A stretch of DNA of 44,506 nucleotides. Source: Thiotrichaceae bacterium. GTDB taxonomy: Bacteria; Pseudomonadota; Gammaproteobacteria; Beggiatoales; Beggiatoaceae. Location of the stretch: the NCBI GenBank assembly GCA_016745055.1, contig JADGDF010000013.1, positions 1-44,506 on the forward strand, read 5' to 3'. The notes beneath the pieces are model-generated. The model was not told the DNA's origin. It searched no databases and was given only the letters and a program-made list of their open reading frames with translations. The position numbers and the translations under genes were made by a program. Positions 360 through 33,800 of the stretch are shown here, piece by piece (the stretch's first letter is position 1; the number at the start of each line of letters is the position of its first letter).

Positions 360-674
360 ATGCACGCAATTATTAAGACAGGTGGCAAACAATATAAGGT
401 TAAAGAAGGAGATACCTTAAAAATTGAAAAAATAAAAGCTGAACCTGGTTCTAATATAGATTTCGACCAAGTGCTCATGGTCGCCGCAATGGATAATATT
501 CAAGTAGGCGCGCCTATACTTGAAGGGAGCAAAGTCACGGCTGAAGTCGTTAGTCAAGGGCGCGGAAAAAAAGTTCACATTATTAAGTTTAAACGCCGTA
601 AGCACCATATGAAACGAATGGGGCATCGCCAATATTACACAGAAGTTAAAATAACAGGCATTATTGCGGCTTAA
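360..674 (+). CDS. rplU: 50S ribosomal protein L21
   Basis: Structural protein of the large ribosomal subunit that binds 23S rRNA. The 104-residue product starts [14 protein letters not shown], the invariant L21 N-terminus, and carries the basic C-terminal [16 protein letters not shown] segment. The frame is open upstream to a GTG at 291, but the ATG at 360 fits the family length (about 103) and has GGAG at 345-348, so I chose 360. It is followed 15 nt later by rpmA, the usual L21-L27 operon. Confidence 0.96.
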
Positions 675-689
675 TTTTAGGAGCATAGC

Positions 690-953
690 ATGGCACATAA
701 AAAAGCAGGTGGCAGTAGTCGAAACGGTCGCGAATCAGAATCAAAACGTCTTGGCGTTAAGCGATATGGTGGTCAACATGTACTGGCAGGTAATATTATC
801 GTTCGCCAACGAGGTACAAAATTTCATCCTGGTGTAAATGTCGGAATTGGCAAAGACCACACTTTGTTTGCAAAGGCTGAAGGGTATGTTAAGTTTGAAA
901 TTAAAGGTTTGAAGAAACGTAAGTTCATTAGTATCTTACCAATGACTGCTTAA
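690..953 (+). CDS. rpmA: 50S ribosomal protein L27
   Basis: Large-subunit protein whose N-terminus reaches the peptidyl transferase centre. The 87 residues begin [24 protein letters not shown], diagnostic for L27, with the conserved [13 protein letters not shown] block in the middle. The start is set by AGGAG at 679-683, 7 nt before the ATG. It is co-transcribed with rplU. The GTPase gene obgE that commonly follows rpmA in proteobacteria is absent; a terminator-like hairpin follows instead. Confidence 0.97.
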
Positions 954-1002
954 TTTAATAATTCAGGTTAGTTATCGCTAATTGACCTATGTTTTGAAAG
1001 AT

Positions 1003-1024
1003 GTTGGGTTTTCGCTAACCCAAC
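1003..1024 (+). terminator. Hairpin after rpmA, probable terminator
   Basis: GTTGGGTT (1003-1010) pairs perfectly with AACCCAAC (1017-1024) across a 6-nt loop, followed by TTAATT. The stem is short and the T tract weak, so termination may be inefficient. It lies about 50 nt after the rpmA stop. Confidence 0.5.
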
Positions 1025-1204
1025 TTAATTCCTACAATCTATTCAATACATGTTACCGTACTAAAACTTTTCTTTTGTTCATCTGAATTGTTCCAAAAAG
1101 CCAATCATCAATTTCTTTCACCTACACAATCTTTGTTGTGGATGCTAAAATGATCTTTGATTTCTTTTAGTTAACCACATTTTCCATTCTTTTCATTAAT
1201 AATT

Positions 1205-2617
1205 ATGCAACATTTCTCTCAAACGCCACTTTGTGTTGATTTAGATGGCACATTAGTCGCTACTGACACACTTTGGGAAAGTTTCTTGGTCTTGCTGAGA
1301 GAATATCCATGGATTTTATTTTTATTACCTTTCTGGCTACTAAAAGGAAAGGCTTATTTTAAGCATCAAATTTCACAGCGTGTTACATTACCTGTAGATA
1401 CGTTGCCTTATCGTGATGAAATTTTAAACTTTCTCAACGTTCAAAAAAGCCAGGGATGTTATTTAGTGCTTGCAACAGCAGCACATCATCACATTGCCAA
1501 TGCCGTTGCGGAATATCTTAAATTATTTGATGAAGTTATTGCGAGTGATGAAAATTCAAATATGAAAGGCACTCAAAAACGCGATAAATTGCGACAAAAG
1601 TTTGGTAATTATGATTACATTGGGGATTCTTTAGCTGATTTACCCATTTTATATACGGCCCAACAAGCTTATTTAGTTGCGCCTAACCAGCAATTACGTA
1701 AAAAATTTCCGACAGCATATATTTTTGAAGCCCAAAAACCTACTTTGAAAACTTGGTTACGCGCGTTACGTCCGCATCAATGGGTTAAAAATGGCTTGCT
1801 TTTTGTGCCATTGATGCTTTCTCATCAGTTTCTTGAGCCAGAAAAATTATACCCCACTATTTTTGGCTTTTTGGCTTTTTGTTTAGCGGCATCAGCCGGT
1901 TACATTCTTAATGATTTACTTGATTTAAGTGCAGATAGAAGTCATAGCACTAAAAAAGAGCGTCCTTTTGCATCAGGTATATTACCTATTCCCTATGGTT
2001 TATTGTTATTTGTTGGTTTATTGATTGCAAGTATCAATTTAGCCTTTTGGCAAATATCTTTCCCCTTTACTGGCATGATTTTGCTGTATTTAATTATGAC
2101 AGTCACTTATTCGTTTTATTTAAAACGAAAAATGATTTTAGATGTGATGGTGTTGGCGATCCTTTATTCTCACCGATTATTTGCTGGAGGCATTGCAGCA
2201 TCAATAGATATTTCTTCATGGCTATTGGCATTTTCTATGTTTATTTTTACTAGCCTTGCGTTTTTAAAACGTTATACGGAGTTATTACAACTCAGTGAAG
2301 AAAAAATTATCAAAAATCGTAATTATTCCGTGGCTGATATTGAAATGATTGCTAGTGCTGGGCCAACCAATGGTTATTTGGCAATATTAGTCTTTGCTCT
2401 ATATATTAGTGGTGAAAATATGGCCCAATTATACCCTGCAGGCTTTTTTCTTTGGTTTATTTGTCCACTATTATTATATTGGATTACTCGTATCTGGTTT
2501 ATTGCCCATCGAAAACAAATGGTAGATGATCCGGTATGGTTTGCATTGACAGATAGAACCAGTTGGTTTGTTATCGTTAGTATTGTTGGCTTATTATTCT
2601 TAGCAAAATTTCTATAG
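1205..2617 (+). CDS. HAD phosphatase-UbiA prenyltransferase fusion protein
   Basis: A 470-residue two-domain protein. Residues 1-170 are a HAD-type hydrolase: DLDGT (catalytic Asp12/Asp14), a central LATAA segment and a GDSLADLP metal-binding loop. Residues 178-470 are a polytopic UbiA-family transferase with LRPHQWVKN, the prenyl-diphosphate motif NDLLD (N236-D240) and about eight hydrophobic helices. LRPHQWVKN is typical of decaprenyl-phosphate phosphoribosyltransferase-like UbiA members, so the substrate may be a polyprenyl phosphate rather than a quinone ring; this is inference. The HAD domain could dephosphorylate the product. I see no clear ribosome binding site. The next gene starts 2 nt after the stop. 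Confidence 0.85.
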   Translation: MQHFSQTPLCVDLDGTLVATDTLWESFLVLLREYPWILFLLPFWLLKGKAYFKHQISQRVTLPVDTLPYRDEILNFLNVQKSQGCYLVLATAAHHHIANAVAEYLKLFDEVIASDENSNMKGTQKRDKLRQKFGNYDYIGDSLADLPILYTAQQAYLVAPNQQLRKKFPTAYIFEAQKPTLKTWLRALRPHQWVKNGLLFVPLMLSHQFLEPEKLYPTIFGFLAFCLAASAGYILNDLLDLSADRSHSTKKERPFASGILPIPYGLLLFVGLLIASINLAFWQISFPFTGMILLYLIMTVTYSFYLKRKMILDVMVLAILYSHRLFAGGIAASIDISSWLLAFSMFIFTSLAFLKRYTELLQLSEEKIIKNRNYSVADIEMIASAGPTNGYLAILVFALYISGENMAQLYPAGFFLWFICPLLLYWITRIWFIAHRKQMVDDPVWFALTDRTSWFVIVSIVGLLFLAKFL

Positions 2618-2619
2618 TT

Positions 2620-3078
2620 ATGTGGCAAAGACAGAAATTTACTCAATTCTTTATTGTTGCAAGTTATTTGAGCACGCTCAGCATAACCTCACAAGTTTTT
2701 GCTGAAGAAGAATTAATGCGTTTACTCACAACACCGATGGAAAGAGAAAAAATAGATAAATTACGCTCTTGGCAAGAGGCCAATGTTTACCTTAATAAAG
2801 ATATACCTGAGCCTCCACCTTATATCACATTTAATGGTATAATCAAAAGATCAGATGGTAATGTGACTTTATGGGTCAATGATGCACAAAAAATCCAGCA
2901 AAAAGGATTTGAGATAAAAGTTGAAGCTGTGGAGGATATTTCTTTACCCATTTTATTGGCCAAAACTAATCAAGTCATTTACCTAAAACCAGGACAAACC
3001 ATAGATATTTTAAATGGCAAAACATTAGAGAGTTATGATAAGCTGAAAGAAGAAAAGTTAGAACCAGCTAATAATTAG
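2620..3078 (+). CDS. Small secreted protein of unknown function
   Basis: A 152-residue protein with a signal peptide (hydrophobic core about residues 9-25, likely cleaved after QVFA). The mature part has a helical, charged LRSWQEA segment, a PEPPPY linker and a small beta domain (TFNGIIKRSDGNVTLWVND ... VIYLKPGQTIDI). The layout resembles periplasmic accessory proteins of type IV pilus or type II secretion systems (PilP/GspC-like homology region), but I cannot assign it. It starts 2 nt after the HAD-UbiA stop and is probably translated with it. No pilus genes are nearby. Confidence 0.7.
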   Translation: MWQRQKFTQFFIVASYLSTLSITSQVFAEEELMRLLTTPMEREKIDKLRSWQEANVYLNKDIPEPPPYITFNGIIKRSDGNVTLWVNDAQKIQQKGFEIKVEAVEDISLPILLAKTNQVIYLKPGQTIDILNGKTLESYDKLKEEKLEPANN

Positions 3079-3177
3079 TGTCGTCAAATGTTTAGTTGCA
3101 GCGAAGCTTGATACTTGTAGTAATAAATTATTGATGGTCATGGAAATTGTATACCATATAAAATTGGGCATCTTTTA

Positions 3178-4305
3178 TCAATTTTCCTGAGAGTTATAAC
3201 TAACTTCGTTCATACTGCCTGCCATCAAATTGATTTCAGTATGTACGCTGTCAAATTTATCTGCCATTTCTTCAAAAGTAATAGTTTCATTACCTTGACG
3301 ACCAATCAGTACGACTTCTTCGCCCCAAGTGACCTCTTCTTGTAAGTCAGTAATATCTACAGTAATAATGTTCAACGAGACTCTTCCCACCACGGGGCAA
3401 CATTGCCCTTTAATGAGTACAATACCTTTGTTAAACAAGCTGCGCGGGTAGCCTTCGCCAAAACCAACCGGTAGTGAAGCAATACGGCTATCACGAGAAG
3501 TTGTGAACAAACTACCATAACCTAATGTTTTTCCCGCAGGTACGTAGCGTATTTCAGCAATACGGGTTTTGATAGACATCACGGGTTGCAGTGCGGGTGG
3601 ATTTTGGAAATGTTGGGACGTACGCATTCCATAGCAAGCTGCGCCTATTCGTATTAAATCCTGTTTAAATTCTGGCAGACGTATTGCCGCTGCACTGTTG
3701 TGCGTATGTACTAAAATATTTTCTGGTAACTCATCTCGCAATGATTCTTTAAGTTCATAAAAAATCTCTAATTGATTGTGAGTATCCATCAAATCAGCGG
3801 CATCAGCTTTCGCAAGATGGGTCATGATACCCACAATATTTAGGCCAGACAGAGTACAAACTCGCTTCAACTCCTCTAATTGTTCAGGGAAAAAACCACT
3901 ACGTCCCATACCTGTGTCAATTTTTAGATGCACAGGTACGGGTTTGCCACGTCGCTGTCCTGCCTGATTCAAGTATTCAGCAATCTCCAATGAACCAACT
4001 TGTTCTTCAAGGTGTAAAGTGGTGAGAGATTCAGTCAATTCTTCTGGCAAAGCCATACGTAAACGCATTACTGGTATTTCAGGATAGCGCTGGCGGATTT
4101 GCCAGGCTTCAGGGTTAGTGCAAATACCTAAATAATCGGCACCGGCTTCCACTGCAGTTGAAAGTAGTGCTTCAAGCCCATGACCATAAGCATTGGCTTT
4201 CATTACCACACAACATTTCGTTGGCGTCGAAGATTGGCGTAAATAACGAATATTGGCTCCAAAAGTATCCTTAGCTATGTTAACTTGAATGTGATGTTGA
4301 TGCAT
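3178..4305 (-). CDS. alr: Alanine racemase (PLP-dependent)
   Basis: Interconverts L- and D-alanine for peptidoglycan. The 375 residues are the normal length. VMKANAYGHG carries the PLP lysine (Lys36), and Tyr263 in LGYGS matches the second catalytic base, followed by an SLPVGFGEGYPR block. The usual Met-Asp of the GRVSMD motif reads Leu311-Asn312 (GRVSLNIITVD), an unusual substitution also known from broad-specificity racemase relatives, so substrate range may differ. The gene is convergent with the small secreted gene and lies downstream of a glycosyltransferase on the same strand, with a MITE-like element in between. Confidence 0.9.
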   Translation of the reverse strand: MHQHHIQVNIAKDTFGANIRYLRQSSTPTKCCVVMKANAYGHGLEALLSTAVEAGADYLGICTNPEAWQIRQRYPEIPVMRLRMALPEELTESLTTLHLEEQVGSLEIAEYLNQAGQRRGKPVPVHLKIDTGMGRSGFFPEQLEELKRVCTLSGLNIVGIMTHLAKADAADLMDTHNQLEIFYELKESLRDELPENILVHTHNSAAAIRLPEFKQDLIRIGAACYGMRTSQHFQNPPALQPVMSIKTRIAEIRYVPAGKTLGYGSLFTTSRDSRIASLPVGFGEGYPRSLFNKGIVLIKGQCCPVVGRVSLNIITVDITDLQEEVTWGEEVVLIGRQGNETITFEEMADKFDSVHTEINLMAGSMNEVSYNSQEN

Positions 4306-4555: not shown

Positions 4556-5254
4556 TTAGTTTTGAGGATTGCAGTTGGAAGTATAATAGAATTTTTTTAA
4601 ATAATTGGGAGAAAAACCTAAAAAATAGCCTAGTCTCAATCCCCACATGAGTAAAATAGTTCGGATAATACCTTTTTCTTCCCAGCGACGGCTGGAGGTA
4701 ACGACTTTCTGTTGCATACAAATCGGCCTGGAAAAACGTTTTAAACGTCGACTAATTTCAATATCTTCCATTAAAGCTTGGTCAGGAAAACCGTTTACTT
4801 TATCAAATAAATGACGTTTGATAAAAATGGCTTGATCCCCAGTGACGATACCTGTTAGACAAGAACGTTTATTCATCAGCCATTCAATAATGCGTAATAG
4901 TTTTGCTTGTCCTGATAATTGCACATTAAATCTACCCCAGTCAGATGAATGAGTTTGTAACGCATTAATAATAAGCTGATCTATGTGTTGTGGTAGCAAA
5001 GTATCTGCGTGTAAAAATAATAAAATATCCCCTTTTGCAGCTTCGGCACCCTGATTTAACTGGGTAGCACGCCCACGGGGACTAATAATACATTGGTCAG
5101 CTAAATTTTCAGCTAATTTTGCAGTGTTATCCTCACTGTGACCATCCACAATGATGATTTCATGACCTATTTGCCGCAAATAATGTAATTGACGCAAGGT
5201 ATTTTCAATCATGACTTGCTCATTAAATGTGGGAATAATGATTGAAAGTTGCAT
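4556..5254 (-). CDS. TIGR04283-type family 2 glycosyltransferase
   Basis: A 232-residue GT-A fold enzyme. It has the N-terminal IIIPTFNE, the nucleotide-binding IIIVDGHSEDNT, the GRATQLNQGA and LFLHADT blocks (DxD-like metal site), WGRFNV, GDQAIFIKR and MEDIEISRRLKR. This order is characteristic of the rSAM/selenodomain-associated transferase 2 family. The acceptor is unknown. The protein lacks membrane helices, apart from a moderately hydrophobic stretch near ILLMWGLRLGYFLG. It is divergent from nuoH. No radical SAM partner lies next to it, although members of this family often have one. Confidence 0.85.
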   Translation of the reverse strand: MQLSIIIPTFNEQVMIENTLRQLHYLRQIGHEIIIVDGHSEDNTAKLAENLADQCIISPRGRATQLNQGAEAAKGDILLFLHADTLLPQHIDQLIINALQTHSSDWGRFNVQLSGQAKLLRIIEWLMNKRSCLTGIVTGDQAIFIKRHLFDKVNGFPDQALMEDIEISRRLKRFSRPICMQQKVVTSSRRWEEKGIIRTILLMWGLRLGYFLGFSPNYLKKFYYTSNCNPQN

Positions 5255-5423
5255 AAGTAAACTCAGGTAATGACTGCGATATAAGTTATTATTTATCTGT
5301 AAATACTAGGGAAATAAGGTTGTTGCATTTACTCATATAATGAGATACCCTAGTTTCCCTTAAAATAGTTTAAAACTTTTGACCCTTGCAAACACAGATT
5401 GCTCTGTAAATGGATACTAACTC

Positions 5424-6497
5424 ATGGTGGACATGTCAACTTTCATTGATGTTGCAGTGTATTTAGGCATTATTTTAATAAAAATATTAGTACTGGTTTT
5501 TCCTCTTTTTATTGTTGTTGCCTACTATACATTAGCTGAACGCAAAATCATTGGTTATATGCAAGTGAGAGTCGGGCCTAACCGCGTCGGTTTTGACGCA
5601 GTTCCTGGTTTACGCAGGATACGAGGTTTAGGTCAGCCAATTGCTGATGCTGTTAAACTAATGTTTAAAGAAATTGTGATTCCCACTAATGCCAATGTAT
5701 TTCTATTTGTCATTGCCCCAGTATTATCGTTTGCCCCCGCTATTGCAGCCTGGGCAGTGATTCCTTTTGATGATGGTTGGGTTGTCGCTGATATAAATGT
5801 CGGCTTACTTTACTTATTAGCCATGACATCAATTTCTGTTTATGGCGTGATTATCGCGGGCTGGGCTTCTAACTCAAAATATGCATTTTTAGGCTCAATT
5901 CGTTCGGCTGCACAAATTATTTCCTATGAAATTGCCATGGGCTTTACCTTAGTTGGCGTTGTACTCGCTGCAGGTAGTTTAAACTTATCCGATATTGTCA
6001 TGGCGCAAAAAGGTAGTTTAATTCATTGGTATTGGTTGCCACTCTTTCCTCTGTTTATTATTTACTTTATTTCGGCCACAGCAGAAACCAATCGGGCGCC
6101 ATTCGACGTTGCAGAAGGTGAATCAGAAATTGTAGCTGGTTTTCACACCGAATATTCAGGCATGTTATTCGCCGTATTCTTCCTGGCCGAATATGCCAAC
6201 ATGATTTTAGTGTCTGCCTTAGCTGTCATTATGTTCCTTGGCGGATGGTTATCCCCTTTTGAAGGCACAATTCTAGGTGAGACTATTTTAGGTCAACACG
6301 GTATTGTGTGGTTTCTATTAAAAACATCCATTTTCATGTTATTGTTTCTCTGGTTTCGGGCAACCTTTCCTCGTTATCGCTACGATCAAATTATGCGTTT
6401 AGGTTGGAAAATATTTATTCCTATTACTTTAGTTTGGATTGTGGTAGAAGCTGCGGCTGTACTTGCAAACTTACCCCCTTGGTTTGTAGAAGGATAA
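5424..6497 (+). CDS. nuoH: NADH-quinone oxidoreductase subunit H
   Basis: Membrane subunit of complex I that forms part of the quinone chamber. The 357 residues contain the signature [19 protein letters not shown], the E-rich loop [24 protein letters not shown] and [17 protein letters not shown] near the C-terminus, with about eight membrane helices. ATGs at 5424 and 5433 are both possible starts. It is the first gene of a short nuoH-nuoI group. The peripheral-arm genes nuoA-nuoG that normally precede it are not adjacent, since the next gene upstream is a divergent glycosyltransferase. Confidence 0.96.
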
Positions 6498-6515
6498 AAT
6501 AAAGGATAAAAATGC

Positions 6516-7007
6516 ATGAGTGCTGTTAAAAATTATATTAAAAGCCTGTTTTTGTGGGAATTGCTGAAAGGCATGCGCGTGACAGGAAAATTTTTCTTTA
6601 CTAAAAAATTAACGCTGTTTTATGGTGATGGTGAAAAAACACCTCAATCACCTCGTTTTCGGGGACAACATGCATTACGCCGTTATGCTAATGGTGAAGA
6701 ACGGTGCATTGCCTGTAAATTATGTGAAGCTGTTTGTCCTGCTTTAGCAATCACTATTGAGTGCGATGAACGTGAAGATGGTACCCGCCGCACAACCCGT
6801 TACGATATTGATTTAACTAAATGTATTTTTTGTGGTTTTTGTGAAGAATCCTGCCCAGTTGATTCTATTGTTGAAACCCGTAATTTTGAATATCACGGGG
6901 AAAGCAAGCAAGATTTGCTCATGACTAAAACAAAATTATTAGCCATGGGGGAAACTTATGAGCCGCAATTGGCTGCTGATCGAAAAGCTGATGCAGCTTT
7001 CCGTTGA
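6516..7007 (+). CDS. nuoI: NADH-quinone oxidoreductase subunit I
   Basis: Iron-sulfur subunit carrying clusters N6a and N6b near the quinone site. The 163 residues include two 8Fe-ferredoxin-type motifs, C64-C67-C70 with C74 ([12 protein letters not shown]) and C103-C106-C109 with C113 ([12 protein letters not shown]), and the conserved [26 protein letters not shown] stretch. It follows nuoH by 18 nt in the same operon. Confidence 0.96.
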
Positions 7008-7035
7008 TTGCTTTTTGTCATAACAGGAGGTAATA

Positions 7036-7737
7036 GTGCGACATTTAAATTTACTAATAGGTAGTTTGCTACTTATTCTACCATTGTACAGTGCAGCAAA
7101 AGAGCTACCAGAAAAATTTTTTTATGATAGTGGAAATATCCAATTTGAATTAAGTTACTTGGACGGCCAAAAACATGGAAACATTAAAGAATTTTATGAA
7201 ACTAGCGAACTTAAAGCAGAAGAAAATTATGATCGTGGTAAATTAAAATCTGCTAAACAATACCGCAAAGATGGTAAGCTGGAGTACGAAATGCGTTACT
7301 CTGGTGGTAAAAAATTGGAAACACAAATTCAATTTTACAACAGTGGTGAATTGTTCCGTGAGCGCAGCCTAGTCAATGGTAAACGCGAAGGTCTTGAAAA
7401 AGACTACTACCAAAATGGTAAAATTAAAGCAGAACGTCATTATATCAATGGTAAAAAAGAAGGTAGCGCACGAGGTTATCATAAAAATGGCAATCTTCAA
7501 GGTGATTGGGTATTTGAAAATGGTGCGCCCATCTCTGCAACTATTTATTATCGCACTGGCGAGTTGTGGCTTAAACACACAGATTTTGTTGATGGTCGCT
7601 TAAACGGCATATCATTGGAATATAATAAAGATGGTGATTTAATTGCAGAACGATTTTATGAAAATGATCGAATGGTCAAACGGAAAAGAGTGATTGAATT
7701 TAGCTTACTCAGTTTGATTTCATGGATTTGGGATTGA
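7036..7737 (+). CDS. Secreted MORN-repeat protein (YwqK-like) between nuoI and nuoJ
   Basis: A 233-residue protein starting with GTG at 7036, supported by AGGAGG at 7025-7030. It has a signal peptide (about residues 1-21, ending SAA) and then about seven to eight short repeats of the MORN_2 type (YxNGxIKAExxYxNGKKEG). Such repeats occur in proteins annotated as YwqK-family antitoxins, but no toxin lies nearby and a signal peptide argues for a periplasmic or surface role. It sits in the nuo operon on the same strand, 28 nt after nuoI and 37 nt before nuoJ. No role in complex I is known to me. Confidence 0.8.
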   Translation: MRHLNLLIGSLLLILPLYSAAKELPEKFFYDSGNIQFELSYLDGQKHGNIKEFYETSELKAEENYDRGKLKSAKQYRKDGKLEYEMRYSGGKKLETQIQFYNSGELFRERSLVNGKREGLEKDYYQNGKIKAERHYINGKKEGSARGYHKNGNLQGDWVFENGAPISATIYYRTGELWLKHTDFVDGRLNGISLEYNKDGDLIAERFYENDRMVKRKRVIEFSLLSLISWIWD

Positions 7738-10748: not shown

Positions 10749-13700
10749 TTATTTATTCTTTTGTAAATTTATATTGGCAGAGGATTTGGTTCCTTCAAAA
10801 TCGTCTAAGCCAAAGAAGTCGCATACACTAGAAAAAACACGCTTATAGACAGCTTCCTGCTTTTCTTGTAAATTCCCAGAAGTATCTGTATGTTCTTCTG
10901 TTGCGATTTTCCTATTCGTCAAAATTTCACTGACTTTCTGGGAAAACTCAGGATTTTCCTTCATCAAAGGCAAAATGTCATCTTTTGCAATTTCGTAAAT
11001 CACAATATCTGTGATAGCAATGACAGTGGCCGCACGAGGCTCACCAGTGAATAAGGCCATTTCCCCAAAAAAGTTGCCAGCCCCTAAACGAGCGACTTCA
11101 ACCAATGAATTTTGCTCTTTACTAGTGCAAACACTTACGCTGACTGCTCCTTCAACGACAATAAACAAAGAATGTCCTTCTTCACCTTGCTTGACTACCA
11201 ATTGGTTAGATTTAAAAATATGGCAGCGTACTTGCTGGCTTAAACGTTCTTTTTGGGCTTGAGTAAAATATTGAAATACATCAATTTCTTTTAATAAAGT
11301 GATGGGTTTTGTAGCTTCTTCTTTGCCTCGAGATTTAACCCCTCTAAAGGTATGAATTTCTTGACGTTGAATGGCAGGCGCAATCCCTGCGCGATTTAAA
11401 TGAATCCAAATACGTTTCCATAGATTTTGCCGCACCATTTTCCGTTTTTTGTATTTATTGACGGAAAAAATCACAATGTAATCAGCCGCCCAATCACTGA
11501 CGCCTCGGTAGGCTACAATAGGCCCTGGATCATCTAATATTCCTTCTGTAGATAATACAGCGTCTAGTAAAATTTTTTCTACTCTTTCAGGTGGATGATG
11601 ATAATCAATATGTAAGCTAATCATTGATTTACATAAATCGCCGGTATAACTAAAATTATGAATAATCGCTTCGGACATTTGACTGTTGGGGACGCTAATA
11701 GTGTGTCCATCGCGATTTAAAAGTCGGGTAGTTCGCCAAGTCATATCGACTATACGTCCGTCGTTTTGAAAGCGACGAACTTGTATTTTAACTTTATCGC
11801 CAATACGAAAAGGTCGTTCTAAATTAATCATCACGCCAGATAATACATTTGCAATATTGTCTTTAATCGCTAAGCCGATAACGGCTGTGACAATGCCGGA
11901 AGTGGCCAGTAAATTAGTAATTGAATGTTTAAAAACAAACGCCACAATGCCAAAACTGGCAAACAAGTAAATAATGAGTGTAATAAATCCTTTGACAATC
12001 TTTGGAATTGAACGACCACTCCGTTCTTCTAAAGGAGCCAGTAAAAAATGCTTAATTAACAAGTCTAATAGAAAAGCAGGGGTTAACCACCATAAAATGT
12101 CAAAAAGAGTGTCCAACCTGTCTAAGTATTGAACAGATAAACCCGTTACAACAATCCAGCCTGCAACCGTTTGTTTAGCAAACTGCTCAGCTAAAATTAG
12201 TACACCAAATACAAGTAATAACCTTAGAAACCAAATAAGGTTAAACAGAAAACGGTATTGAGTGATAATGTCTGCTAAACGCATCAAAGCCATGAAACTT
12301 GTTACCACAGCCGTCCAAATCGCAGTATATTGTAAAAAAGGGTAAAATGCTTGTGTTTGGTAAATATCTAAAAAAGAGAATGGGTAAGTTAAGATAACTG
12401 CAAACAATATCGTTAAAGCACGTTTGAACAAGGATTTAAATTTAAAAAAGGATAAAATCATTATAAAATACAATCCACCCATCAATATCAACTCTTGCCA
12501 TGATATACCATTAATCAATATAGTTATCAAAAAAAATGCGGTAGCAATAACAATGACACGAATTAGCCAATGAATTTTGAATAAAATCAGAAATAGGGCA
12601 ATCAGTAAAACAAAATACTCTTTTTGCAATGGAATAAGATAACGCAGGCCAACTTGAGTTTCTGCAGCAACAACACCCAAATTAAAACGAGAATAGCCTT
12701 GGGTTGAATTTTTGATAGAAGTGGGATCGCCTAAAGTATCTGGTTGGAAAACATCCTGAAAGATAAAAGCATCTTTGATAAACCATTCTTTACCCAACTT
12801 TAATACTTGTTCTTGACGTAGCTTATTGCGTAGTCTCATACGGCTAGAAAACCCCATCCCAATTACATCAGGCACATAAACCATATGAGTATTAGGATTT
12901 TCACGGTGATGAAAACTAATCCCAAATAAATGTTGTTGATGAGGTAAAAAATTAGTTAAAAAATCACTACGGAAACGGCCTTCACCGTAGTATAATTGGT
13001 ATTTGAGACGACCAATCTGTTTGGTTTCCTTTAAAGTGAGTTTAACTGCTTCAACGGCATTGGTAAATTGAATATTGTTGGGATGGGTATTTCCAATAAA
13101 ACGAAACCAAAGTTTAAAATCCACTACATGCGTTAGTTCTTTGGGATTAATATCTCTAATTTTATCAATTTTGACCCCTGTGTATACAATATGCGTTTTA
13201 TACGCACGTTCTCCTTCACTCAGCGGTACAATCCAATGATTATCTATTTCTGCTTGTAAATTGGTCTGTGTTTCTGTGCCCATCATGGGTTGAAACTGGC
13301 TTAAAGCAGGCACAACTTGCTTATCTTTATACACAGCAATGTAAGGAAAGCGCAAAGAATTTCCATTTTTATCAAAATAATTAAAACCAGTAATGCTTTC
13401 AACTGCATTTTCAATAGTATTAAGGCTGGCTAAATAACTTCTAATTTTTTCACGATTGAGTTGAATTTTATCTGGTGCACTTGAAACAAGTTTAGATTTA
13501 AGTGCTTTGCCCATTATCATTGCTGCGTCATAAGCTAAAGTGGCAATAATCCAGTGAGTTACGCCCCAGCTTTCAACGGCTTCTTGGTACTGTTGACGAA
13601 AATGTTCTTTAAATTGATAAGCTTTCAAATTGGCTGTATCGCTTAAGAAAGGTGAAATGACATACATATCATCAGTGTAATTTGTTGATTTATTAGCATT

Positions 13701-14546
13701 TAAACTTTCTAATAATTCAACTTCAGTGACAAATTGATGATGTAAAAAGGAGCTGGGGCCAATGAGTACATTTTGAATATTGGCTTCTTTAAGCAAACTG
13801 ACAAATTTTGCCCCATAGCTAGCGTCAACAGCAAGTAATATTGGACTATCATTGGAATTGGATTTTAAATCGTTAATAATATCTTGTGAACGCGAAAAAA
13901 AATCACTTTGGGTGAATGACCACTGATGATTAATTGTCACACCAGTTTGCTGTGCAGTGGACTCAAATCCCTGCTTCAAGCTCAGTCCATAATCATTTTC
14001 TATATAAATAATATTGGCAGAAGTTTGTTGTAAGATATGTTTAATGGTGTAAGCAAGAAACTTAGCTTCTAAAGTCTCACTCAAGGTCATTTTAAAAAAC
14101 CAAGGATTTGCTTGAGTAATGTGAGAATCAGTCGCCGATGGTGTAATGGCTGGAATTTTGTGTTGAGCATAAATTTTTCCCCCCACCATTGCCGTTGAAG
14201 AGAGAAAATGACCTAATACCGCAACAATGCGTTTGTCTTCAGCAATTTTCTTGCTAATAATCGCTGTTTGTTTTGGGTCTGCTTGAGTATCATAGATTTT
14301 TAAAATTACCCGTTTTTGTGCCATCTCTTGTTCTTGATTCAACTGACTAAAGTAAAGTTCTATGGCATGAAGCATTAATTTACCTTGTTCTGCCAAATGG
14401 CCTGACAAAGGTAAAGCAACTGCAATATAAATGGCATTGGGGTCTTCTGTTTCATCTATATTTAAATGTACAAGGCCAATTTTGTAGAAAATACCGATGA
14501 GAACAGTGATTATCACAATAATGCGCATAGTTTTTCGACGTAGCAT
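10749..14546 (-). CDS. Putative multi-ligand channel: periplasmic-binding + pLGIC-like ectodomain + MscS + cyclic-nucleotide-binding
   Basis: A 1265-residue membrane protein. Residues 8-25 form a membrane anchor. About 38-430 is a type I periplasmic binding domain of the Leu/Ile/Val family (IYIAVALPLSG, AVLGHFLSSTA, ITPSATD). About 440-640 looks like a pentameric ligand-gated channel ectodomain: VYTGVKIDKIRDIN, VVDFKLWFRF, FLPHQQHLFGISF, EWFIKDAF, then YSRFNL and RYLIPLQ before the membrane. About 640-860 holds several helices. About 860-1090 is an MscS core (TSGIVTAVIGLAIKDNIANV, LERPFRIGDKV). About 1100-1230 is a cyclic-nucleotide domain with the intact phosphate cassette FGEMALFTGEPRAATV. 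Cyclic-nucleotide-gated MscS relatives are known; the added ectodomains suggest gating by external ligands too (inference). It has no operon partner. Confidence 0.8.
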   Translation of the reverse strand: MLRRKTMRIIVIITVLIGIFYKIGLVHLNIDETEDPNAIYIAVALPLSGHLAEQGKLMLHAIELYFSQLNQEQEMAQKRVILKIYDTQADPKQTAIISKKIAEDKRIVAVLGHFLSSTAMVGGKIYAQHKIPAITPSATDSHITQANPWFFKMTLSETLEAKFLAYTIKHILQQTSANIIYIENDYGLSLKQGFESTAQQTGVTINHQWSFTQSDFFSRSQDIINDLKSNSNDSPILLAVDASYGAKFVSLLKEANIQNVLIGPSSFLHHQFVTEVELLESLNANKSTNYTDDMYVISPFLSDTANLKAYQFKEHFRQQYQEAVESWGVTHWIIATLAYDAAMIMGKALKSKLVSSAPDKIQLNREKIRSYLASLNTIENAVESITGFNYFDKNGNSLRFPYIAVYKDKQVVPALSQFQPMMGTETQTNLQAEIDNHWIVPLSEGERAYKTHIVYTGVKIDKIRDINPKELTHVVDFKLWFRFIGNTHPNNIQFTNAVEAVKLTLKETKQIGRLKYQLYYGEGRFRSDFLTNFLPHQQHLFGISFHHRENPNTHMVYVPDVIGMGFSSRMRLRNKLRQEQVLKLGKEWFIKDAFIFQDVFQPDTLGDPTSIKNSTQGYSRFNLGVVAAETQVGLRYLIPLQKEYFVLLIALFLILFKIHWLIRVIVIATAFFLITILINGISWQELILMGGLYFIMILSFFKFKSLFKRALTILFAVILTYPFSFLDIYQTQAFYPFLQYTAIWTAVVTSFMALMRLADIITQYRFLFNLIWFLRLLLVFGVLILAEQFAKQTVAGWIVVTGLSVQYLDRLDTLFDILWWLTPAFLLDLLIKHFLLAPLEERSGRSIPKIVKGFITLIIYLFASFGIVAFVFKHSITNLLATSGIVTAVIGLAIKDNIANVLSGVMINLERPFRIGDKVKIQVRRFQNDGRIVDMTWRTTRLLNRDGHTISVPNSQMSEAIIHNFSYTGDLCKSMISLHIDYHHPPERVEKILLDAVLSTEGILDDPGPIVAYRGVSDWAADYIVIFSVNKYKKRKMVRQNLWKRIWIHLNRAGIAPAIQRQEIHTFRGVKSRGKEEATKPITLLKEIDVFQYFTQAQKERLSQQVRCHIFKSNQLVVKQGEEGHSLFIVVEGAVSVSVCTSKEQNSLVEVARLGAGNFFGEMALFTGEPRAATVIAITDIVIYEIAKDDILPLMKENPEFSQKVSEILTNRKIATEEHTDTSGNLQEKQEAVYKRVFSSVCDFFGLDDFEGTKSSANINLQKNK

Positions 14547-22727: not shown

Positions 22728-25700
22728 TTATAATTCCAATTCTTTCAATTTTAACACAATCCCTACCGTCTCCAAACTAACCGCCACTACTTTCCCAACC
22801 AATTGTAATATATATTCTTCGTCATCTTTGCGGTTGGGATTATTTACAATGCCGCTTCTTTTATCGGTTTTAATTCGGTATTGATCGATAATCCATTCTA
22901 GGGCAGAACGGTTGCCTAGTTTATAGTCGAAGGCTGGTTTGGGGATGCCAGTTAGGGTTAGGAAATTATTGTAGATTAGTTGGGTTTTATCTTTGGAGAG
23001 CCTCATTTTTTCTACTTTTAGGCTGAAGGGGTATTTGGGATTTTCTATTTGTGCTAGTTGGTAGGGTTGAATTTGTTCGTAATTTAGGTGGAGTTCGGCG
23101 AGTTTTTGACCAGCTTGAGCGAAGTCCCAGAATGTTGGGGTGAGTGGTAGGCGTGGGAGTTCTCGTTTTAGGTTTTGGGCGTATTTTTCTCGGTATTGGG
23201 GTTGGTGGAGCAAACTGTAAACGTAGTGGAATATGTCCCATTTGGTTATTTTTTTATCTTGGTAGTGTTGTTGCCAGTGGTTTAATGCCCAGTCGGTGAT
23301 GTTTTCGGTGCGATTGCTGCCGTCTTCGTTGTAGGTGTAGAAGGGAAATGCTTGACCATTGCGTCCGCCTATACATAAATCTGGAATACAATCAGTTATT
23401 TGTACTACAAACGGAATTTGTGAATGATTAGTACAATAAATAACCCTATTTTCCGCTTCTGTTTCTGGAGTGGGGAAAATCTTTGGAAAATTATAAACAT
23501 CTTCATTAAAAATTCTTTCAAAATAGTAAAACCGTTTGGTAAAAGGACGGTACAATGAATGACGAATTTTTTCTTCATTAAAAACGACTTCTTTACCACG
23601 TAACAAGCTTCTTTTAGTGTACCGAATCCATTTCAAGACTCTTTCATCGATGTTTAAAAAACCTTCAATTTCTTTGGGTTGTCCTTTGTGTATCCATCTA
23701 TTTTGTTCAGAACCGTAGTTTTCTACCATTCCTTGAACTATTTCAACGAGTTTAGCGGAATCAAAATTGTACAGATAAGCATCACTGTTAGTTTTCACAC
23801 CGTTACTGAAAATCTTAAAAACAACTCCCTCAACTTCTTTCTTAGTTGCTTTCGTTTCCTTTGTACCCAATGGAACAAATTTATCAAATTCTTCATGCAG
23901 TCCTTCAGTTAGCCAGATGTGTTTTTTGTCCGCACACACAAGTTGCATTGGAATACCAGAATAACTTTTAGCAGAGTCTAAGAAATTTTTCTTGTCATGG
24001 GCCTTCAAGTAATCATCAATGGAATATAACCATATTTCGGCATTTTTGTTAGCCAATTGTTTGCTTTTTATGAAAAATGTAATACCAACACTTACCCTAA
24101 TACTATCATCAAAAACATTACCACCTTCTTGACGACGACGTTCTCCTGAAGTACGAGCATTACCTTTTAAATTAATATGATAAATCTTAGAAAAATCTTG
24201 AGCCAAATGCTTCCGCATCCCATCAAACGCAATGCTATCTAAAAAACTATTATTAGTCACAAACGCAACAATGCCTTCATCTTTAATTCGCTCAGAAGCC
24301 CATTTAATCGCTTTCACATAAGGATCGGACAAAGAATTTTTCAAAGTCGCCTTAGAATCTTTAGCATAAGTTTCTTTCACCCAATTCCCTACAGTTTTAT
24401 AAACTTGATTCTTATTATTATCATTCTCATTATTTTGACTTGCATTATAAGGCGGATTGCCAATAATAACGAAAAAATCAGTTGCTTTTTGCTTCTCAAC
24501 CCGCTCAGTATTTTCTGGTGCAAATAGATCAGGTTGTTTATCCTCCACCAACTCAAACGTATCTGCCAAACAAATTCCCTCAAATGGCAGATACCGCCCC
24601 ATCACATCCATATACTGATGCTCAATATTCATACAAGCCAAATAATAGGGCAACAACATGATTTCATTGCAATGCAACTCATTTTTATACTTATAATCCA
24701 ACTTCATTTTTCCATGCGAACCCAACGCCCGAATCACTCGACTAATAAAATTACCCGTTCCCACAAACGGATCTAAAATATGCACCCCTTTATCCGCCAA
24801 CGACTTACCAAAATCCTGCTGTAAAATCTCCTCCACCGACCGCACCATAAAATCTACAATCGGCTGGGGCGTATAAACAATTCCATGCGTATCAGCCACT
24901 TTAACCGAAAAACCCTGAAAAAATCGCTCATAAATCGTATTCAAAAAATGCTGCTTATAGCTATATTCACTAATCGTGGCCGCCACCCCTTCCAAAGCCT
25001 TATAAAAATACTGCAACTCCGCAAAAAAAGCATCTCGATTAAAAGACTTAGCCGTTAATTTCTCAATCACCACCTCAATTTCACGAGCAATAATATTGCG
25101 TTTAGCAAACTCTGAATAACTAAACAAATTTCGAAAAATCCGCTCTGTCAATAAATGCTGAATTAACATTTCCTCAATCGCAGCGTCAGCCAAATTCGGA
25201 TTAATCGCCTGCCGACATTGTTCCGCAAAACTATTAAAAGCTTTGTTAAACGGCTTATCTTTCTGCAAAGCCGTCCGAATCACTGCCAACAACCTAGCGC
25301 CCAACTCCGGCACACGTTCCTTAAACTCAATCGCCGCTTTGTCCCACGCATCATATTCTGGACGCTTAAAATCAAAAAACTGCTCAACCACTGCCAGCAA
25401 ATTTTCTGGTTTAGCCAACGGGACATCCAACACAACTTCACCATTTTGAATCAGAATGGCATGACTAGGCTTTTGAAATACAATATTATCTTGCGGATAG
25501 CCTTTGCCATATAACTTCTCCTGAATGGCAGGCTCCAATTTAACTGACTCCCTCTTCGCTTCCCAATAACCACGAGGAATTTGAGACTCATCAAACAAAG
25601 TGCCATCCAAACGGATAGCTTGCAAAGTCTGCTCTTGAATTAAAGTCCAATTCCGAGATTGGGCATAAGCCTCTAAAATATGTTGAAAAGCCTGCTTAAC

Positions 25701-25793
25701 GGTATCTTCCTGCGTTTGGTTAGCCCGCTCAAAAGCTTGCAATTCCTGATAGTAATTCTTGATTATTTTATGGTTGGGCGTTATTTTTAGCAT
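22728..25793 (-). CDS. Type ISP/IIG-like single-chain restriction-modification enzyme
   Basis: 1021 residues combining nuclease and adenine methyltransferase. Near the N-terminus RLDGTLFDES followed by GYWEAKRE gives a PD-(D/E)xK nuclease site. The centre has SAM motif I DPFVGTGNF and catalytic motif IV NPPYN. The C-terminal third (TKWDIFHYVYSLLHQPQYREKYAQNLKRELPRLP ... YKLGNRSALEWIIDQYRIKTDKRSGI) is the type ISP C-terminal domain that reads the target. The helicase of true type ISP enzymes is missing, so it is closer to a IIG layout. It would cut and methylate DNA by itself. The 3' end is duplicated in degenerate form at 20385-21038. Confidence 0.88.
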   Translation of the reverse strand: MLKITPNHKIIKNYYQELQAFERANQTQEDTVKQAFQHILEAYAQSRNWTLIQEQTLQAIRLDGTLFDESQIPRGYWEAKRESVKLEPAIQEKLYGKGYPQDNIVFQKPSHAILIQNGEVVLDVPLAKPENLLAVVEQFFDFKRPEYDAWDKAAIEFKERVPELGARLLAVIRTALQKDKPFNKAFNSFAEQCRQAINPNLADAAIEEMLIQHLLTERIFRNLFSYSEFAKRNIIAREIEVVIEKLTAKSFNRDAFFAELQYFYKALEGVAATISEYSYKQHFLNTIYERFFQGFSVKVADTHGIVYTPQPIVDFMVRSVEEILQQDFGKSLADKGVHILDPFVGTGNFISRVIRALGSHGKMKLDYKYKNELHCNEIMLLPYYLACMNIEHQYMDVMGRYLPFEGICLADTFELVEDKQPDLFAPENTERVEKQKATDFFVIIGNPPYNASQNNENDNNKNQVYKTVGNWVKETYAKDSKATLKNSLSDPYVKAIKWASERIKDEGIVAFVTNNSFLDSIAFDGMRKHLAQDFSKIYHINLKGNARTSGERRRQEGGNVFDDSIRVSVGITFFIKSKQLANKNAEIWLYSIDDYLKAHDKKNFLDSAKSYSGIPMQLVCADKKHIWLTEGLHEEFDKFVPLGTKETKATKKEVEGVVFKIFSNGVKTNSDAYLYNFDSAKLVEIVQGMVENYGSEQNRWIHKGQPKEIEGFLNIDERVLKWIRYTKRSLLRGKEVVFNEEKIRHSLYRPFTKRFYYFERIFNEDVYNFPKIFPTPETEAENRVIYCTNHSQIPFVVQITDCIPDLCIGGRNGQAFPFYTYNEDGSNRTENITDWALNHWQQHYQDKKITKWDIFHYVYSLLHQPQYREKYAQNLKRELPRLPLTPTFWDFAQAGQKLAELHLNYEQIQPYQLAQIENPKYPFSLKVEKMRLSKDKTQLIYNNFLTLTGIPKPAFDYKLGNRSALEWIIDQYRIKTDKRSGIVNNPNRKDDEEYILQLVGKVVAVSLETVGIVLKLKELEL

Positions 25794-30483: not shown

Positions 30484-30843
30484 ATCCACATTAAATTCTG
30501 CTAAAATTAGACTTGTAGTTTTTGAGTAACATACAATTTTATCGTTTATTTAATACTTATTGTTCAGCTATACTTTTATAGATTGATAGAATCACATTTA
30601 CGTTATAGAAATTAATGTTTACTGATAAAATTTTCTATCTTGACTTTTAATTATAAGTAGTAATCACAAAATATATTGTATACTAATGCCTTAATGGTTG
30701 CCTTATCAACAAAATTTAATAGGTTCTTTTAAAAGAAATTAGGAAAATCGTCAGAAGGTTATTTTGTTTAAAAACAGAAAATTAACATTTTTTAAATGGC
30801 AAATTCACTTTATGCCTTTAATGTTTATGTAGGAGAGTTACGA
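30484..30843. other. Leader region of the giant secreted protein gene
   Basis: 360 bp, AT-rich, no gene. TTGACT at 30640-30645 and TATACT at 30679-30684 are promoter-like but 33 bp apart, too far to pair. The frame is open from ATG 30796, but the real start is taken as 30844. Confidence 0.35.
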
Positions 30844-33800
30844 ATGTTTCCCGAATCCCAAATTCACAGGCGCAATATGTCGCTTGGTTGGCAAAAGAGT
30901 CTATTATTATGGCTACTTGTGTTTATTTTACCTTATGTGATTGCCCCTGTTTATGCAGTCACAGTGTCTACCCAAGTATGTAGTTCTTCCGTGCCAATGA
31001 CCATTCCTGATCAAAACTCAAGTGGTATCACGGGTATTATTAACATTCCTAGCACTGTCAAAATCAAAAATCCAAGTGTCATACTTAGCGCAAATCATGG
31101 ACATATTGGTGAATTAACCATTAAGCTAAAACATGATAGTACAACGGTCAATTTATTGGATAAGCCTGGTACTAACAGTAGTAGTCTGCAAGGCTGTGCG
31201 GGCAAAAATATCACAGATTTGAGATTAAATGATTCAGGGACAGAAAAAACGCAAGGTAGCTGTGGTTTTACTGACCCTGCTTATGATAAAAATTTTGTTT
31301 ATGAACCAAAAGGCAGCTTAAATAATTTTGATGCCCAGCCTCTGGGAGGAGATTGGATTTTAAGCATCGTAGATGCATTTGATTATAGTAAGGTACCAGG
31401 TGCATTGACCAAATGGTGTTTGGAATATGAGACTTATGCTAGCAGTGGGTTAACATTTACCTTTAGCCCAGCTTCCTTAACCTTCAACGGGGAAGTTGCT
31501 GTCTACGATAAAGCAATCCAAACCTTTATAATTACGGCCCCTGGTGAAGATATTATTATTTATGATTATAAATTTGAAGATATTTCTCCAACGGATAGTT
31601 ACAAAAGTTTTACGCTAACTAATCCCTTTGGTAGTGATTTTCCCATGATTATTAAAGCAGGCGAAACCAAAACTTTTTCTGCTAAATGTGAACCAACGCA
31701 AGAAGGAACGCTGCAAGCAAATTTGGTCTTGGAAACTAATATTGAAGGTGCCTCCAAAATAAAATATCCATTACAATGTGCTTCTGTTGCTGCAAAATAT
31801 GATTCCTCGCTGAACAATGGTGCAACGCTTGATTTTGGAAGTATGACCGTTGGGCAAACCACAAGCCCTCAAACATTTACTGTAAGTGAAACTTCAAATA
31901 AAGTTGATCTAAAACTAAAGTATTCAATAAGAGGCACTCATCGTAACGATTTTAGTTTGGTGATTAAACCAGACTCTGTAGCGAAAAGTGGTTCTGCAAG
32001 CATCGCATTGGTTTGTAAACCTATAGATGTGGGCACAAGAACAGCAGAGTTAGAAATTGTTACCAATGATCCCACTAAAAAAACTCAAGCTTATAAACTA
32101 ACTTGTGTGGGAGAAGGTGCAGTTTATAAATCTACTCCCGTACCTGGCGAATTTAATTTGGGCGCTGCAATCCCCGGCAACTCTGTTGGGCGCGATTTAA
32201 ATTTACGCAATGAGGGAAATAAGAATTTAGATATAAAAATTACCGATGTGTCACTTATTGGTGATAGTAGTATTTTCTCTGTTGCAATGAATGTAGATTT
32301 AAGTATTGCAGCTAATGGCAATAGTAATATTACTGTTAGTTGCCAACCCAATGCAGAAACCATTTATACTGCCACATTAAAAATATCCCATACAGGCGTT
32401 AATCAACCCAACCCTGCTGAATATCCTTTAGTTTGCTCGGGTTCAACTAATGCTGTACCTGTATATGATTCTACGCTAGAAGCTACAAAAGAACTGGATG
32501 TGGGAGACGCAATTAGTACCACTAAACCGGCCGCTAAATTTTTTACAATTAAAGAATTGGGCAATGCTGCACTTGAAGTCAGTAATTTTCTCATTACGGG
32601 TAAAAATCCAGACAGTTTTTCTATTGTAAGTCCCTCTTTTCCCATTAATATTGCAGATGGTGGTAATCCTATTGATGTTGAAGTCAAATGTGACCCTAAA
32701 GAAACGAAGCAGTTAAGGGCAGATTTAGAATTAGTTACTAATGATCCTAATAAACTTAATGTGACTTACCGTTTAAAATGCTATGGCAGACGGCCCATTT
32801 ATAACTTTATACCGACTGCTGACTACCAAAATGCCACAAACACGCTGAAAATTGGTACGCAAGTCTTTGGTGGCCGCGTTAGCAACGAATTACAAGTTAA
32901 AAATACAGGTAATCTTGGCTTAAAACTCACGCTTCCTGCAATACCAATTGATGGTCCACATGCGGGTGATTTCAAAATTATTAATCCAACACCTCCTTCA
33001 ACACCTGGAAGTAAATTTCTCAATCTTTATAACAGTAAAATTAAAAAAATTACGATTGAATGTGCTCCGACAGGTTTAGGCTCACGGGATGCTACCTTGC
33101 ATTTACTAACAAACGATCCAGATTTTCCTGTCGTCGATTACAACTTAACGTGTATGAGTGAACGCCCTTTGGGTCCTGGTTATGACTCTGAGCCTGCTCC
33201 AGGGAGTGTGATTAAATTTGGCCAACTTTCTGTGGGAGAAACCAAAGTTTTGCCGTTAGTGGTAAAAGAAGTAGGCACAACTGTGCTTAATGTGAGCTTT
33301 GCTTCCCCCGCAATTAGTGGTACAAATGCAGACATGTTCACGGTGGAAACCTCTGCATTTACCCGTCCAGCTAACCCCTCTTATCTTTCTGATGGTGAAC
33401 CCCCACGTACCATCAATGTGACTTGTAAACCTACTAAAGAAGGAGAATTTGAAGCAACGTTGACTTTGAATTCAGACGACATTGTATTTCCTAAGCCCAA
33501 ATACATTTTACAATGTATCGCAGGTCCTATTATTATTCCACCGGATGATCCCGATGATCCAACACCAATCACACCAGATACGCCTCCTGGTCCAATCCCT
33601 CCTGGCAATCTTTACCAAGTGCTAAAAGTGGCGACAACCGGTTCTGGGGAAGGCTTTGTTAAAAGTGCCCCTCCAGGTATTTCTTGCTTTCATCTGGAAA
33701 ATGGTGAAAAAGACTGTGAAGAAGAATATGAACAAGGCACGACTGTCATGTTAGCGCCCACGTCTCAGCCTGGTTCTATATTTGGTGGTTGGAGTGACAA

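Follow-up and report, generated by a model that had tools for sequence, protein, structure and literature searches.

The window analysed here is a stretch of 44,506 nucleotides from a Thiotrichaceae bacterium (contig JADGDF010000013.1). Its positions 10749..14546 on the minus strand hold a complete coding sequence of 1265 codons that starts with ATG and has no internal stop. Four modules, defined by homology, follow each other in the encoded polypeptide of 1265 amino acids: a periplasmic binding domain (PBP), an ectodomain of the type found in pentameric ligand-gated ion channels (pLGICs), a pore of the MscS type and a cyclic-nucleotide-binding (cNMP) domain. The assignment rests on the open reading frame and on Pfam, and the same order is repeated in a paralog and in relatives. 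A preliminary description of this DNA had proposed the same order, and the motifs to which it pointed (VYTGVKIDKI, DFKLWFRF, LPHQQHLF, EW, YSRF...RYLIPL and FGEMAL...RAATV) are all found in the translation in the sequence it gave.

The protein, all of whose features lie on the minus strand, begins with a hydrophobic segment at residues 9-27 (14466..14522), which the hydropathy scan suggests to be a signal anchor or a signal peptide. Residues 39-394 (13365..14432) form a Leu/Ile/Val-type periplasmic binding domain, matched by Peripla_BP_6 (PF13458) with E 2e-27 over model positions 2-325 of 343, which corresponds to a full-length bilobal PBP of type I. By sequence it matches 3hut (E 1e-15) and LivJ/LivK-type proteins, and Foldseek places it on 3hut with E 6e-24 and TMt 0.83; the Foldseek list for the full model is filled by such PBP matches and bears on no other domain. 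Lobe 1 shares GHxxSS and PxAT with the leucine-binding protein, residues that we take to contact the ligand backbone.

The middle domain (residues 437-644, 12615..13238) is followed by a transmembrane region at residues 645-853 (11988..12614), with about seven helices predicted by hydropathy, some four in excess of the usual number in relatives, and seen as helices in a low-confidence AlphaFold2 model. The MscS core at residues 854-1060 (11367..11987) comprises the last two helices, the beta domain and the C-terminal alpha/beta domain. It is matched by MS_channel_2nd (PF00924, residues 898-966, E 2e-15) and MS_channel_3rd (PF21082, residues 976-1055, E 2e-7), and by YnaI and MscS chains in phmmer; its pore helix contains ...LLATSGIVTAVIGLAI..., after which the beta and C-terminal domains follow as in the MscS superfamily. 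Pfam found no match to the four-helix pLGIC pore (Neur_chan_memb, PF02932) in the protein, and the pore is that of MscS. The cNMP domain closes the chain at residues 1080-1215 (10902..11309; PF00027 at residues 1111-1198, E 1e-21) and resembles the regulatory domains of PKG and PKA as well as mlCNG. Aligned with the PKG and PKA domains, its phosphate-binding cassette FGEMALFTGEPRAATV is intact and FGEMAL...RAATV is kept, as expected of a bacterial cyclic-nucleotide-gated (bCNG) channel. A motif search found RTA at this site in 20 relatives and RAA in two proteins including that of the window, which leads us to expect that they differ in their preference for cAMP or cGMP. Cyclic nucleotides are plausible in this host because its genome has 19 matches to class III cyclase domains. 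The Pfam matches thus bear out the binding domain that had been read at the N-terminus, as well as the MscS core and the cNMP domain behind it.

The least certain part of that earlier reading was the assignment of residues ~430-640 to a pLGIC ectodomain. A Pfam scan of the window protein gave no match between residues ~400 and ~890, and neither the window ectodomain nor its close relatives, searched by sequence alone, gave a convincing match in Pfam or the PDB, the profile of the window ectodomain having no PDB match at all; homology was therefore shown through sister proteins, profiles and fold. A sister of 787 amino acids from the same genome (L004:1285-3645) consists of a PBP and a homologous middle domain that lead into Neur_chan_memb (E 6e-6), and further sisters with this PBP, middle domain and pLGIC pore occur in relatives. 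The profile of 11 such pLGIC-pored ectodomains matches GLIC in the PDB (E 4.5e-6), and it aligns co-linearly over 203 columns with the profile of 23 ectodomains from proteins with an MscS pore, termed MscS-type in the following (hhalign, 100%, E 1.3e-65). In genome scans, the MscS-type profile also retrieved canonical proteins of ~370 amino acids from other Gammaproteobacteria with E 4e-12 to 7e-8, one of which (L133) matches GLIC across both ectodomain and pore. Against four of these canonical bacterial pLGICs, the MscS-type profile aligns over 168 columns (98.4%, E 8e-15).

The predicted fold agrees with these profiles. AlphaFold2 modelled the ectodomain from 90 sequences with a predicted local distance difference test (pLDDT) of 88.3 and a predicted TM-score (pTM) of 0.81, and Foldseek retrieved AChBP, nicotinic and GABA-A receptors, ELIC and sTeLIC, with E 1e-9 for AChBP, nAChR and ELIC. 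VIA-align superposed the model on sTeLIC with Z 15.7 and 2.5 Å over 153 residues, GLIC, ELIC and GABA-A receptors being close behind, and gave Z >= 8 for all 1000 chains that were re-aligned. A beta-sandwich that had merely converged on this fold would agree with the lack of any PDB or convincing Pfam match for the window profile by itself, but such convergence is very improbable in view of the co-linear homology to both kinds of pLGIC, the retrieval of canonical pLGICs by the MscS-type profile and a GYPIDKH sequence retained at the Pro-loop of a Desulfonema limicola protein (L103). Judged from profiles and models, residues 437-644 are a pLGIC ectodomain with a Cys-loop-type beta-sandwich. The absence of any likeness to Cys-loop ectodomains had been named as an outcome that would speak against the assignment; in the profiles, the AlphaFold2 monomer and Foldseek the likeness was found.

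Relatives with the same order of modules show that the chain belongs to a family and is no accident. The genome of the window (4.65 Mb in 356 contigs) encodes on another contig a paralog of 1167 amino acids with the same order, which also recurs in most relatives from the same family. In one scan of named genomes, which used peptide patterns from MscS-type ectodomains and whose taxonomic counts are no census, 75 loci and 80 complete proteins with PBP, ectodomain and MscS pore were found, 39 of the 80 with a cNMP domain. Their hosts belong to Gamma- and Alphaproteobacteria, Desulfobacteria, Spirochaetota, Deferribacterota, Cloacimonadota and a few others, with partial copies elsewhere, and include the cultured Desulfonema magnum, Desulfoluna spongiiphila, D. 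butyratoxydans and Magnetospirillum moscoviense. The D. magnum copy (L060:4702-8145) sits on a complete chromosome, with PBP, MscS and cNMP domains recognized by Pfam and the ectodomain between them. Recurrence in the paralog, in most relatives of the family and in 80 complete proteins lifts the order far above what chance would give. An ectodomain profile matched 15 of 369 sampled genomes of the class, pLGIC-pored and canonical forms included, and the family is therefore patchy.

An artefact, in which at least two genes were fused by a sequencing frameshift, a lost stop codon or an assembly error, had been a further possible objection. Nothing in its favor was found beyond an assembly of 356 contigs; the single open frame, the paralog, the complete chromosome and the 80 proteins of the same design all stand against it, and it was rejected, since so many relatives exclude a frameshift join. 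With the same evidence, the domain order has been traced in other genomes and several phyla, as the preliminary description had suggested doing.

The pLGIC ancestry of the ectodomain does not extend to the residues that couple it to its pore. In pLGICs, the contact between ectodomain and pore is formed by the Pro-loop and the pre-M1 arginine, including a salt bridge, and the proline of the Pro-loop is the sole absolutely conserved residue (Jaiteh et al. 2016, PMC4795631). The pLGIC-pored sisters retain the Pro-loop proline, the Pro-loop aspartate and the pre-M1 arginine in 12 of 12 cases each, whereas among 32 MscS-type ectodomains the proline is present in two and the aspartate and the arginine in one each. 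In a larger alignment, the Y/F-P-x-D signature of the beta6-beta7 Pro-loop is missing in 88 of 89 relatives. The window copy has a degenerate Pro-loop at residues 533-539 (12930..12950), FLPHQQH in place of Y/F-P-x-D-x-Q; the proline of LPHQQ is kept and the aspartate is not, with Q and E at the other two places. An exception is L103:1-2712 (plus strand) from a Desulfonema limicola bin, an MscS-type protein whose Pro-loop-like GYPIDKH is possibly a remnant or an intermediate. Since aspartate and arginine are nearly absent from MscS-type ectodomains, the canonical contact was lost with the pore swap. The pLGIC reading of the domain thus stands, with the refinement that its coupling to the pore cannot be canonical.

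Other parts of the protein have been kept. Both the tryptophan of LWFR and that of the GW motif are present in all 32 MscS-type ectodomains, and V134, D136, G139, G182 and other positions are invariant in 90 alignment rows. Conservation in the pore helix and the MscS beta domain is among the highest of the whole chain, and many columns at model positions 832-879 are invariant or nearly so. The membrane region varies: by hydropathy, the stretch that links the ectodomain to the MscS cytoplasmic domain has nine predicted helices in the window protein and five in that of D. magnum. These counts are approximate, since the scan marked three further segments of the window protein that belong to soluble domains and predicted fewer helices for some relatives. 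Both numbers are odd, which would put the ectodomain on the outer and the MscS/cNMP part on the inner side of the membrane, in line with expectation, so that PBP and ectodomain are probably periplasmic and the MscS cytoplasmic and cNMP domains face the cytosol. The proposed architecture holds, with the qualification that the window protein has diverged from typical relatives, which have five helices here against its nine or so.

A tree of 107 ectodomains, rooted on canonical pLGICs, places 91 MscS-type sequences on one side of a branch with a Shimodaira-Hasegawa-like approximate likelihood ratio test (SH-aLRT) value of 100, and this clade adjoins the pLGIC-pored PBP proteins; it is a quick estimate from a single short domain and contains several long branches, that of the window copy among them, and the place of the window copy in it is unsure. 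The simplest history that we infer is that a PBP-bearing pLGIC swapped its own pore for an MscS pore once and then spread. In this case one ancestral event would have supplied the periplasmic half, and its donor would have been a bacterial pLGIC to which a periplasmic binding domain was already joined.

Among the relatives, pLGIC-type ectodomains occur in further combinations. Proteins of ~1190 amino acids at L051:8861-12469 and 614-4156 (minus strand), L052:1001-4570 (plus) and L055:1307-4864 (plus) combine a PBP-I and a pLGIC-type ectodomain with a pLGIC pore (Pfam, L055) and a C-terminal SBP_bac_1, and thus carry different binding proteins at both ends. At L033:838-3708 (plus strand), a DUF697 domain precedes a PBP-ectodomain protein.

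The arrangement of genes offers hints on how these channels may be used. Of the 16 two-copy loci, which all belong to the sulfur-oxidizer group, 14 have a copy lacking the cNMP domain directly upstream of a cNMP-bearing copy on the same strand (L074, L079, L080, L090, L091, L094, L097, L098, L100, L101, L102, L119, L122 and L127), which suggests mixed oligomers of subunits with and without cNMP domains. Eight Desulfamplus/Desulfoluna loci encode a channel without cNMP domain, and in the three of them that were checked the next gene encodes a cNMP domain joined to a Na+/sulfate (DASS) symporter (L089:7627-9534, L083:7736-9643 and L106:7561-9498, all plus strand; the Desulfoluna channel of L089 is at 4681-7539). 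Such neighbors suggest signaling or transport partners and would suit a non-conducting sensor, in which the MscS fold serves as a scaffold that relays a periplasmic signal to the cNMP domain or to partner proteins. The high conservation of pore helix and beta domain is what is expected of a working pore, and we consider this sensor improbable.

No single neighboring gene is common to the whole family when the neighborhoods of relatives are compared. In the window, the channel gene is flanked by a methyltransferase gene (PrmC-like by reading) and a prismane/hydroxylamine-reductase gene, with no evident functional link. The typical paralog in this genome adjoins a gene that by eye resembles the large subunit of a TRAP transporter of the DctM type (L003:3686-4897, minus strand). 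Elsewhere in the window lie a type ISP restriction-modification enzyme (22728-25793, minus strand) and a protein of 2222 amino acids with Calx-beta, InlB-type and HYDIN/ASH-like Ig repeats (30796-37464, plus strand).

Taken together, the protein is probably a channel of the MscS superfamily with a pLGIC-derived periplasmic half, which receives a ligand from outside and a cyclic nucleotide from inside. In such a channel, the PBP would bind an amino-acid-like ligand or a small carboxylate, and its closure would reorganize the ectodomain ring. In place of a Pro-loop/M2-M3 contact, the ring could then use the helices ahead of the MscS pore helix, which it would pull or rotate. On the cytoplasmic side, cAMP or cGMP bound to the C-terminal domain would shift the open probability in the manner of bCNG channels. 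The pore would release ions or small solutes, probably still aided by membrane tension, so that the flux would be conditional on one outside and one inside signal.

Several observations weigh against this interpretation. The loss of the Pro-loop aspartate and the pre-M1 arginine also fits an ectodomain that is a mere spacer. Rings of pLGIC ectodomains are pentameric and those of MscS heptameric, a mismatch in symmetry. AlphaFold2 modelled residues 36-1220 with pLDDT 77.9 and pTM 0.58, and blocks of the membrane region reach only pLDDT 35-60. The window copy also has the longest branch among the MscS-type ectodomains (1.76) in addition to its extra helices, and both suggest that its function may have diverged. 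The chief rival explanation takes PBP and ectodomain for a passive decoration or a ligand trap on an ordinary tension-gated MscS or bCNG channel, with an ectodomain that transmits nothing. Consistent with it are the loss of aspartate and of arginine in 31 of 32 MscS-type ectodomains each and the fact that ectodomain and pore are separated by differing numbers of helices; yet decoration does not readily explain why PBP, ectodomain and MscS have stayed joined in 80 complete proteins of several phyla or why the ectodomain core is invariant, and we regard it as unlikely, but as a rival to be taken seriously. For the ligand-gated MscS channel favored here, a broader claim is evenly balanced in our view: that it represents a widespread, hitherto undescribed class of natural chimeras in which a Cys-loop ectodomain ring drives an MscS pore without Pro-loop coupling and integrates ligand, cyclic nucleotide and possibly tension, in which tandem copies may form hetero-oligomers, and for which the conflict between fivefold and sevenfold symmetry has to be resolved.

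Cys-loop receptors and MscS, which rank among the ion-channel superfamilies that have been studied best, show no relation in fold, symmetry or gating, and here they share one conserved chain. Should the MscS pore be gated by the ectodomain, the ectodomain of neurotransmitter receptors would be a portable ligand sensor that can operate without the Pro-loop contact long held essential, and MscS pores could be ligand-gated from outside. Sister proteins that share PBP and ectodomain and differ in the pore provide a direct natural comparison for ectodomain-pore coupling, and the cultured hosts make the chimeric channel testable.

Both halves of the protein have known counterparts. The E. coli channels MscK, MscM and YnaI belong to the MscS superfamily and carry additional helices or a large periplasmic portion, and the window protein resembles them in its MscS core with added upstream helices (phmmer and NCBIfam matches); to our knowledge, they have no pLGIC ectodomain, no Leu/Ile/Val-type PBP and no cNMP domain. 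With bCNG channels, which consist of an MscS core and a C-terminal cyclic-nucleotide domain according to Caldwell et al. 2010 as cited in PMC4560390, it shares the order of its last two modules. Proteins of 461-470 amino acids with MscS and cNMP domains but without PBP and ectodomain also occur in relatives (L034, L035). The bCNG channels known to us have short transmembrane N-termini and neither a PBP nor a pLGIC ectodomain. A periplasmic domain ahead of a pLGIC ectodomain is likewise found in DeCLIC and other pLGICs with accessory domains (PMC12664993); DeCLIC differs from the window protein in having kept the pLGIC pore and in an accessory domain that consists of jelly-roll lobes and not of a PBP. 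A search of the open-access literature, where absence is weak evidence, turned up no account of an MscS pore combined with a pLGIC or Cys-loop ectodomain. Bacterial pLGICs with an N-terminal PBP-I domain are known, and the survey that reported them (Tasneem et al. 2004, PMC549065) says nothing of MscS and describes bacterial forms that keep the ligand-binding domain and the four-helix pore as a core. The window protein is like these PBP-pLGICs and like the L004 sister in having the same N-terminal PBP and then a homologous pLGIC ectodomain, but it has extra helices and an MscS pore in place of the four-helix pore, has lost the coupling aspartate and arginine and has gained a cNMP domain. Its pieces, PBP-pLGIC and MscS-cNMP, were already known, and what appears to be new is their chimera with a rewired junction.

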